A stretch of 64,000 nt of DNA, taken from the NCBI GenBank assembly GCA_023038255.1, contig CP082927.1, positions 634,146 to 698,145 of the forward strand, read 5' to 3'. Shown one piece after another: positions 3,685-6,992 of the stretch. Within the stretch, counting starts at the first letter, position 1; every line of letters begins with the position of its first letter. The position numbers and the translations under genes are program-made. Under the pieces are notes generated by a model. That model worked only from the letters and a program-made list of their open reading frames with translations. It was not told the origin of the DNA and did not search any database. Source of the DNA: Candidatus Peribacteria bacterium (GTDB lineage Bacteria > Patescibacteriota > Gracilibacteria > Peribacterales > Peribacteraceae).

Positions 3685-3745
3685 AAACTTGGGCCATTGT
3701 ACATTCATGTTCATTCGCCAGGTAAATTGGCCTATACTTTACGCC

Positions 3746-5779
3746 ATGAATCGTTTGTCTGTCTCCCGCATCAGTGAGTGGTCTCTTCTCCTGCTTTTGT
3801 GCTTTTCCATCCTCTGGAGAGGGGGAAAGGGCCTGGAATCAACGTGGTTACTGGCAGGTGTCGCTGGCATTATGACGCTTCTGTATGCAGCAAAACGGTT
3901 CTTTGGGATTACGAGCGGCGATGCGGCAACAGGCGCCAAGAAGATTGATACACCGGTCTTTCTTTGGGCTATGGTGCTTGGTCTGATGTTTCTCAGCATT
4001 GCTAGCTACCTGCACTCATCCGTGCAGAATTACGGACTGGACACAGTCTTTCGGAATGTTTCCTTATCATTGATTTTCCTCTGGGTGATCCGCCAGAAAA
4101 TTGATGGAACACAGGAGAGATTTTTCACTCGTTTTTTACAGGTGATTACCGCAACGGCAATCATTGCCGCTCTTATAGGAATCGCCGTCTATGTCTTCCA
4201 GCCCGTAAACCGTCTGGTTGGCACATTCTTTGATATCCGGTTCACAACAGACTATTGGCCGAATGCATGGGCTGATTTTGCGCTGCTTGCATGGCCGCTT
4301 GTTGTTCTGCAGCTCATTCGCACGGAAGCACTGAAGCTGCGTGCCGTCATCCTGTTGGGATTGGGAATGCTGATCGGTGCATTACTCCTGAGCTATTCGC
4401 GCGGCGCTCTTCTGGCATTTGTGGGACAGTGCATTCTGACAGTCCTCTCTATCGGCGCTCTTGGCATCAGTGATATCCGGTATAAGCGCATTCTCAAGAG
4501 TGCCGTATCGGGCATTATCGTACAGGCGGTGGTTGTCACAACGATCGCCGTTCTCCTCTTCCTCGGTGTGAACCAACTGCGATCACAGCTCTACCCGGTT
4601 CAGTCTGTTGCAGAAAAAATCACCTTTACCGCGTCCGAGGGGACATCATCCATCGACGAGCGCAGTCAGTTCTGGCAGCAGTCCTTCGAGCGTTCGTTTG
4701 ATCATCCGTTCCTTGGATACGGTCCATACAGTTTCCGCTTCGTGCAGCCATCTTCCATGCAGCACGTCCTGGCAACATCGGACCACGCGCATAACGTTAT
4801 TCTGAATACCGCACTGGATTTTGGATGGATTGTCGCGGTGTTGCTTGTCCTTATTGTACTCACGCCGGTGCTGTCATCTGCACGGATGCTTTTTGTGGAC
4901 AGGCGTGAATGGTCACAGGAAAAAGACATGAATGCAGTCTTTCTTTTGGTTGCGGTCCTTGGCGTTGCTGCGCACAACATGATCGACTACAACTTCCAGT
5001 TTGTGGGCATCGCGCTTCCGTTCTGGCTGTGTCTGGGATTTTTGATGGTGCCGCGTGCACGGAAAGAATCCGTCGCAACATCGTTCATGTACTGGAAATT
5101 TTCCCGCTACCTCATCCGCGTCAAAATTTTTCTGGCTGTTCTCCTTCTGACTGCCGTGTTCGCGGAAGGTATAGGACTGGTCCTTTCGTCTTTCGGTCGT
5201 CATGCAGAAGCCAATGGGGAAACCGACACCGCTCTGCAGTGGTACGACCGTGCAAAGCATGAATGGTTCAGCCGTGATATGCATCTGAGCGAGGCACAGC
5301 TGTACCTCCAGAAAAACGATCCTGCATCCGCTCTGAACGCCCTCACTGTGTACATGACACAGAATGCTCTCGATGCCCGTGCATGGAAGCTGCGGGCCAT
5401 GGCGCTCCTGCGCGATCAGGATATTTCGGGTGCAACTGCTGCTATTGAGAAAGCCTACGCAATCGGGAAATACACAGATCTCGGCATGCTGGATCTCCTC
5501 CTGCAGACCGCACGCGATCCGGAACAGAAAGCAACACTCCTCACCAGGAAACTGGAGTTCGATGCCATCTTCTCTGCCTATGCTGATGCCATTGAACAGA
5601 ACACACACTTCATCGCGCTCTCGCAGAATGTCGAAGAACTCCTCTCCGTCGCACGTGAACTCTCACAGCTCTTTCCTATGGATGAAAGACGATACAAGCA
5701 GATAGCCCGCAGAGCTGCGGACCACGCACGCGAAGAACGCGAGAAATACACCGCTCAGGCAACAGGCATGTTGTGGTAA
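3746..5779 (+). CDS. O-antigen ligase/polymerase-like membrane protein with C-terminal TPR region
   Basis: About 677 residues. It has ten or more membrane segments with a long loop carrying the Wzy_C/WaaL-type region: SYSRGALLAF, then RSQFWQQSFERSFDHPFLGYGP and the conserved DHAHNVILNTALDFGW. The last ~220 residues are soluble and tetratricopeptide-like (ETDTALQWYDRAKHEW, LYLQKNDPASALNALTVY). The family moves or polymerises undecaprenyl-linked glycans at the outer face of the membrane; here the acceptor is unknown. The start at 3746 rather than 3689 is chosen because TATACT (3733-3738) ends 7 bp upstream. The following lipoprotein has its own start signal. Confidence 0.85.
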   Translation: MNRLSVSRISEWSLLLLLCFSILWRGGKGLESTWLLAGVAGIMTLLYAAKRFFGITSGDAATGAKKIDTPVFLWAMVLGLMFLSIASYLHSSVQNYGLDTVFRNVSLSLIFLWVIRQKIDGTQERFFTRFLQVITATAIIAALIGIAVYVFQPVNRLVGTFFDIRFTTDYWPNAWADFALLAWPLVVLQLIRTEALKLRAVILLGLGMLIGALLLSYSRGALLAFVGQCILTVLSIGALGISDIRYKRILKSAVSGIIVQAVVVTTIAVLLFLGVNQLRSQLYPVQSVAEKITFTASEGTSSIDERSQFWQQSFERSFDHPFLGYGPYSFRFVQPSSMQHVLATSDHAHNVILNTALDFGWIVAVLLVLIVLTPVLSSARMLFVDRREWSQEKDMNAVFLLVAVLGVAAHNMIDYNFQFVGIALPFWLCLGFLMVPRARKESVATSFMYWKFSRYLIRVKIFLAVLLLTAVFAEGIGLVLSSFGRHAEANGETDTALQWYDRAKHEWFSRDMHLSEAQLYLQKNDPASALNALTVYMTQNALDARAWKLRAMALLRDQDISGATAAIEKAYAIGKYTDLGMLDLLLQTARDPEQKATLLTRKLEFDAIFSAYADAIEQNTHFIALSQNVEELLSVARELSQLFPMDERRYKQIARRAADHAREEREKYTAQATGMLW

Positions 5780-5788
5780 GATTTGCAC

Positions 5789-6301
5789 ATGCATCTACGC
5801 CCCATAGTTCTCGCGGTTCTTCTGCTAACAGTGTTGTCCGCCTGTTTTGCAAACACTCCCGTTACCGGTGACACAGAAAGCACTGCCTCCACTCCCACAC
5901 TAACGGTAACGCCCAACAATCAGGCAAAAGACACCGAACATGGCGAGATGATGAACCTGGCAATCGGGGCGCTTACCGGTGCAAACGGGACATTGGCAAA
6001 CGGCGTCGCGACTGCGTATGAGTTTGAAGATGGGTCCACCAATATTGGCGTACAGTTAAACATTGCGACCGCCAAAGAAGGCACGGTGTACGATGCCTGG
6101 CTCGAAGATGCTGCGGGCAAGCGTTTGCCCATTGGAACACTGGAGAATACTGCAGGCGATGTGCGTCATTACGCACGACTGACGACAAAAGCAGAGATCA
6201 AAACCTATAGAAATGTGGTGATTCTCCTGCGTCAAAAGAACGATGCGCCGGATCAGGGACAGGTGATTGCGACGGGTATACTGAAGGATAGTGCACGTTA
6301 A
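5789..6301 (+). CDS. Putative lipoprotein with RskA-C-like domain
   Basis: About 170 residues. The signal peptide MHLRPIVLAVLLLTVLSAC ends in a clear lipobox (LSAC), followed by a Thr/Ser-rich spacer and a domain running from MNLAIGALTGANGTL to VIATGILK. The stretch TVYDAWLEDAAGKRLPIGTL resembles the C-terminal domain of anti-sigma-K factors, but this is weak and no anti-sigma region is attached. It is anchored on the outer membrane face. TAAGAT ends 6 bp before ATG 5789. A TTG at 5783 is in frame but lies inside the promoter-to-start gap. It begins 9 bp after the ligase stop. Confidence 0.7.
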   Translation: MHLRPIVLAVLLLTVLSACFANTPVTGDTESTASTPTLTVTPNNQAKDTEHGEMMNLAIGALTGANGTLANGVATAYEFEDGSTNIGVQLNIATAKEGTVYDAWLEDAAGKRLPIGTLENTAGDVRHYARLTTKAEIKTYRNVVILLRQKNDAPDQGQVIATGILKDSAR

Positions 6302-6357: not shown

Positions 6358-6381
6358 AAAAAGAACCCCATTATCGGGTTC
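6358..6381 (-). terminator. Rho-independent terminator of the candidate ncRNA
   Basis: On the minus strand GAACCC-GATAATG-GGGTTC is followed by TTTTTG, a standard intrinsic terminator. No protein gene on the minus strand ends here, so it most likely closes the transcript starting near 6672. Confidence 0.75.
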
Positions 6382-6672
6382 ATAGAGACGGCCGTCTCAG
6401 GGTCGATACCGTAGGGAGAGGGGATGATGGTCATTCGCCGGTGCGAATGTCGGTGGGCCTTTCACTTCACCTGCTCTTACCGAAGAGTCGGGAGGCTCAT
6501 TACCATGCTCAATGTGAGGAAGGTAATGAACGCTACGTGCATAAGCACGAGCGGAAGTGAAGCAGCGCGATGCGTTGTGTACTTCACGTGTTTCATAGTA
6601 GGTCCCCGGAAGGGACTCGGGGAGTGTACGGAGACGGATTTTATTGTCCAGTGATGATTGACGCAGGAATGT
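6358..6672 (-). ncRNA. Candidate structured non-coding RNA, ~315 nt
   Basis: Between a strong extended -10 (6687-6679) and an intrinsic terminator lies ~315 nt without a convincing protein gene but with at least seven perfect stems: 6603-6607/6619-6623, 6557-6562/6582-6587, 6531-6553 with a one-base bulge, 6497-6504/6522-6529, 6474-6478/6483-6487, 6432-6438/6443-6449, and the palindrome 6385-6398. The half CCGTCTC of that palindrome can also pair with GAGACGG at 6631-6637 to close the whole molecule. I compared it by eye with tmRNA, RNase P RNA, SRP RNA and 6S RNA and found no signature. A hydrophobic ORF of about 39 codons lies inside and is a weak alternative explanation. Confidence 0.55.
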
Positions 6673-6678
6673 GTTCTA

Positions 6679-6687
6679 ATTATAACA
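6679..6687 (-). promoter_or_regulatory. Extended -10 promoter of the candidate ncRNA
   Basis: Minus-strand TGTTATAAT is a perfect TGn-TATAAT. No good -35 is seen, as expected for extended -10 promoters. Predicted start near 6672. Confidence 0.65.
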
Positions 6688-6915: not shown

Positions 6916-6992
6916 CGGGACGTAGCTCAGTTGGCTAGAGCGTACGGTTCGGGACCGTAAGGCCGAAGGTTCAAGTCCTTTCGTCCCGACCA
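6916..6992 (+). tRNA. tRNA-Pro (anticodon CGG)
   Basis: CGGGACG/CGTCCCG acceptor, discriminator A, encoded CCA; anticodon stem TACGG/CCGTA with loop TTCGGGA gives CGG. 77 nt. pdxS starts 25 bp downstream on the same strand. Confidence 0.95.

Follow-up and report, generated by a model that had tools for sequence, protein, structure and literature searches.

A small gene specific to Peribacteraceae, with its own promoter and conserved RNA hairpins in its reading frame, encodes a predicted membrane protein

A stretch of minus-strand sequence at 6687-6358 of the DNA analysed here (64,000 nucleotides from a Candidatus Peribacteria bacterium, hereafter the window) raises the question of what a strongly folded, apparently stand-alone transcript does in a genome of this kind. 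Candidate-phylum (CPR) bacteria have reduced genomes with few genes and little regulation, and the Peribacteraceae are a family of tiny groundwater bacteria within this group. The preliminary description took the stretch to be gene-free and read it as a structured RNA, either a divergent copy of a universal RNA or a new class. The elements on which it relied are present: an extended -10 TGTTATAAT (6687-6679, minus), an intrinsic terminator GAACCCGATAATGGGGTTC-TTTTT (6381-6358, minus) and several perfect stems between the two, and the minus-strand fold (-98 kcal/mol) is better than that of dinucleotide shuffles (z -3.8). Searches against Rfam gave no family match in the region at the gathering threshold, and relaxing the limit to E 10 added nothing but a chance match to ROSE_3 on the opposite strand, which scored 13 of 43 bits. 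The stretch is not a divergent RNase P RNA or tmRNA, since the genome has its own copies at other sites (143 and 84 bits, respectively). A search of the whole genome (1,239,242 bp in one contig) also gave a 6S-like match of 35.7 bits, below the cut-off, at C1:141287-141440, and no SRP RNA was found in it with two bacterial SRP models. The protein-coding character of the locus, described next, speaks against either of these two RNAs here.

Comparison with relatives places the conserved part of this region in a reading frame. When 58 related genomes were searched at the DNA level, 14 matched, including the window's own, all of them from one family, and alignment of these matches identifies the conserved part as a minus-strand frame of 39 codons plus TAA (6596-6477). 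This open reading frame (ORF) is unannotated and lies inside the supposedly gene-free stretch; its product is MKHVKYTTHRAASLPLVLMHVAFITFLTLSMVMSLPTLR. In the same DNA matches sequence conservation ends near the stop codon and does not extend into the 3' half of the proposed RNA (below ~6477). A protein profile of the ORF, searched in a way that reads through stops, recovered homologous ORFs in 62 of the 74 genomes of the family, normally one per genome and spanning 35 of its 40 genera; none of the 62 carries an in-frame stop, even where protein identity to the window copy drops to ~26%. In a class-wide draw the homologue was present in 39 of 44 same-family genomes and absent from all of the ~200 same-class genomes of other families, and those relatives that bear names belong without exception to Candidatus Peribacteria, Peregrinibacteria or Peribacteraceae. 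In some of the family genomes with no match the neighbouring gene sits at a contig end, which makes absence there uninformative; in a few others (G058, G074 and G008) inspection of the sequence flanking the neighbour revealed no homologue.

The pattern of change within the frame is that of a protein. Among the 42 rows tested, the true frame is the only one that is free of stops in every row, and its pN/pS of 0.56 is the lowest among the frames. Indels in the protein alignment are codon-sized, His20 is invariant, and Ile24 and Pro36 are nearly so. An open frame kept across divergent genomes, with selection at the level of amino acids, is what is expected of a small-protein gene, and by this comparison the ORF is almost certainly protein-coding. 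The homologues are ~33-45 residues long, each with one predicted helix that has the invariant histidine inside it, and the AlphaFold model is likewise a single helix (residues 7-34, with pLDDT of at least 90 at 14 residues). On the strength of this predicted transmembrane helix the product is a putative membrane protein. Proteins such as CydX, KdpF and MgtR, which have ~30-40 residues and one helix, are easily missed in annotation. The present protein is like them in being short and single-helix, and unlike them in the invariant histidine within its helix and in having no Pfam, NCBIfam or PDB match. PADLOC gave no convincing match either, which leaves the protein without a counterpart in the libraries searched; weak Pfam matches confined to single members (DUF4791, Vps55 and others, E 0.01-0.09) are attributed to chance. 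A literature search on small proteins of Peribacteria found nothing.

Upstream of the ORF the relatives share a promoter different from the one originally proposed. The extended -10 at 6687-6679 is not conserved in relatives, and among 54 anchored sequences there is no conserved -10 upstream of the first of the boxes described below. The conserved promoter lies ~55 bp further downstream (6650-6623, minus) and comprises a -35 element TGGACA (6650-6645; family consensus CTRGACA) and a -10 element TACACT (6628-6623; family TAcAcT). The arrangement TRGACA-16 bp-TAcAcT is found in most of the 62 relatives, with the 16-bp spacer in 57 of them. It is preceded by two further boxes on the same strand, GAACACA (6676-6670), which is conserved in relatives at a fixed spacing, and GTCAA (6662-6658), which emerges from the upstream alignment and its anchored logo; the starts of GAACACA, GTCAA and the GACA of the -35 element follow one another at steps of 14 bp (window 6645-6676, minus). 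As judged from its sequence, the conserved promoter is sigma-70-like with two extra upstream boxes, and transcription is predicted to start at ~6617. The 16-bp spacing of -35 and -10 and a -10 of the form T-A-x-A-x-T are also those of sigma-70 promoters with upstream activator sites. Such promoters differ from this one in their TTGACA, where the small gene has CTRGACA, in the two boxes at 14-bp steps, and in the restriction of the composite to one gene per genome. Of 15 genomes scanned for the composite motif (54 bp), 14 have a single site each, located in every case at the small gene, and controls gave zero; no second site that would point to a regulon was found in the 15 genomes, and a scan of 242 same-class genomes gave none outside the family.

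The structure noticed in the RNA persists once the gene is recognised. In the window sequence alone the plus strand folds better (z -5.1) than the minus strand, which might suggest an RNA from the opposite strand. However, conserved stems contain 41 G-U wobble cells when read as the sense (minus) strand as against 10 A-C cells, and the sense strand has the more negative fold in 23 of 31 relatives, both of which favour the minus strand, and the plus-strand RNA was rejected. The coding sequences themselves fold better than synonymous resamplings (mean z -1.5, with 46 of 62 below -1) and better than codon permutations (mean z -2.05). Pairing was counted on an alignment built by sequence and not fitted to structure, with stems picked after the fold had been seen. 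In this count the stems covary, as the preliminary description had proposed to check. RNAalifold finds two of the three ORF hairpins, C and D, unprompted.

Hairpin C (CGTGC-TTAT-GCACG, 6549-6536, minus) shows the strongest covariation, with 96.4% of cells paired against 8-71% in slid controls, 24 double changes where shuffles give 6.5, and double substitution at three of its five pairs. The compensation runs through the code, in that codon 17 is GTG (Val) where His20 is CAC (32 rows) and ATG (Met) where it is CAT (5 rows). This hairpin has the largest excess of pairing over codon-preserving column shuffles, but the value, 0.075, barely exceeds the maximum that the null reaches at any position (0.073). 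When its pair states are mapped on a tree of the neighbouring protein, they change 3-5 times each, and a sign test on independent pairs, of which there are too few, does not reach significance. Hairpin D, formed by TTCATTACC (6530-6522) and GGTAATGAG (6504-6496) within 6530-6496 on the minus strand, also covaries, with a small excess over codon-column shuffles (0.003-0.015). Hairpin C thus has more compensatory change than column shuffles, slid controls or codon constraint would give, and D has a weaker excess when codons are held. Hairpin B (6587-6557, minus), which joins GTGAAG (6587-6582) to CTTCAC (6562-6557), is the weakest of the three, with 80% of cells paired. A fourth hairpin, A (GTCCC..GGGAC, 6616-6601, minus), lies in the 5' UTR with its 3' arm over the Shine-Dalgarno region; it recurs with differing sequences in at least 13 relatives and is absent in many others. 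Taken over these comparisons, RNA structure in the ORF is very probably under selection.

At the other end of the transcript, 28 of the 62 relatives have terminator-like sites no more than 300 nt from the stop codon, as against 9.4 in shuffles. Beyond it lies a pair of plus-strand genes (window 3689-6301) for a Wzy_C/TPR O-antigen-ligase-like protein and then a small lipoprotein with weak likeness to the RskA C-terminal domain; both are present in the flank of the small gene at 56 of 62 loci, nearly always tail-to-tail with it. This conserved convergent pair makes an envelope role the first guess for the small protein. The link is weak, however, as genes in this orientation do not share a transcript with the small gene, and such a role is offered tentatively. 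On the upstream side a tRNA-Pro(CGG) gene (window 6916-6992, plus) is divergent from the small gene, and it is near the small gene in several relatives too. In ~20 relatives the upstream same-strand gene encodes an enzyme that resembles LeuA in some genomes and threonine dehydratase in others (e.g. L052, L095, L096).

The reading that we consider moderately probable from these comparisons is that of a Peribacteraceae-specific gene for a small membrane protein, with its own promoter and with mRNA hairpins that restrain translation. The gene, the promoter and the RNA structure of the ORF emerge from comparison between genomes; from them we infer hairpin control of translation and action at the inner membrane. 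A dedicated regulator would bind the upstream boxes and set transcription, and the intrinsic terminator would end the short transcript. The early ORF hairpins B-D, joined in some genomes by the 5'-UTR hairpin, would keep the ribosome-binding site and the first part of the coding region partly closed, with the result that translation would be low or would await a trigger. The small protein would then insert N-in into the inner membrane, where its functions may concern the envelope. A precedent is the AapA3 mRNA of Helicobacter pylori, which has hairpins that sequester the Shine-Dalgarno sequence in both its 5' UTR and its ORF (PMC6733600). An effect of the RNA structure on translation has a slightly better than even chance. 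Both loci have a short mRNA, a small hydrophobic peptide, and 5'-UTR and ORF hairpins able to close the Shine-Dalgarno sequence. Unlike AapA3/IsoA3, the small gene is normally single copy, its synteny is conserved and antisense sigma-70-like promoters are not enriched near its 3' end; the likeness is one of features of mRNA and peptide.

The same likeness leads to the main rival explanation, namely a type I toxin-like system in which a hydrophobic peptide depolarises the membrane, its mRNA is locked by structure and an antisense RNA silences it. The product has the form expected of such toxins (a hydrophobic peptide of fewer than 60 residues with one helix), and its size, single helix and structured mRNA, with a 5'-UTR hairpin that covers the Shine-Dalgarno region, agree with both membrane type I toxins (PMC8309996) and AapA3 (PMC6733600). 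Typical toxin loci are, however, mobile and patchy, whereas this gene is normally single copy, holds its synteny at 56 of 62 loci and occurs in most of the family. Antisense sigma-70-like promoters over the 3' end of the ORF and the 3' flank are not enriched (3% against 9% in shuffles), and the PADLOC search gave no match; this explanation is considered unlikely. A comparably low probability is given to the view that this is an ordinary small membrane protein gene whose hairpins are functionless by-products of codon and amino-acid constraint. Amino acids do already dictate much of the pairing in hairpin D, as its small excess indicates. Against this, hairpin C exceeds codon-preserving shuffles, the choice of valine or methionine at codon 17 is linked to a synonymous choice at His20, and the ORF as a whole folds better than synonymous resampling allows.

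It could also be proposed that the hairpins serve a dual-function RNA, one that acts in trans as a regulator and also encodes the peptide. Conservation of both RNA structure and protein would suit this, as would a stand-alone gene with its own promoter and terminator, but sequence conservation in the DNA matches stops near the stop codon and no conserved unpaired seed was seen outside the ORF, and we regard it as improbable, more so than either of the preceding explanations. Least credible, and strongly disfavoured, is the original reading of a non-coding structured RNA in which the ORF is accidental. The covariation of hairpins C and D and the lack of an Rfam match are what it has in its favour; the absence of stops in all 62 genomes despite the divergence of the proteins, the codon-position pattern of change, the codon-sized indels and the invariant histidine all speak against it. 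What survives of that reading is a predicted minus-strand RNA, structured and terminated, with no Rfam match. The non-coding class does not survive, the conserved core being a small-protein gene.

Searches for structured RNA can therefore land on unannotated small-protein genes, and the 62 sequences collected here form a defined set on which the protein and RNA layers can be tested. A further combination, less likely than not, is that the small membrane protein of the whole family has an invariant histidine within the membrane, that its coding sequence is at the same time a conserved RNA regulatory structure, and that the regulator of its promoter has this gene as its only target. For the Peribacteraceae, the retention of one copy per genome in most of the family, together with a dedicated promoter motif and RNA structure in the frame, suggests a tightly dosed membrane component.
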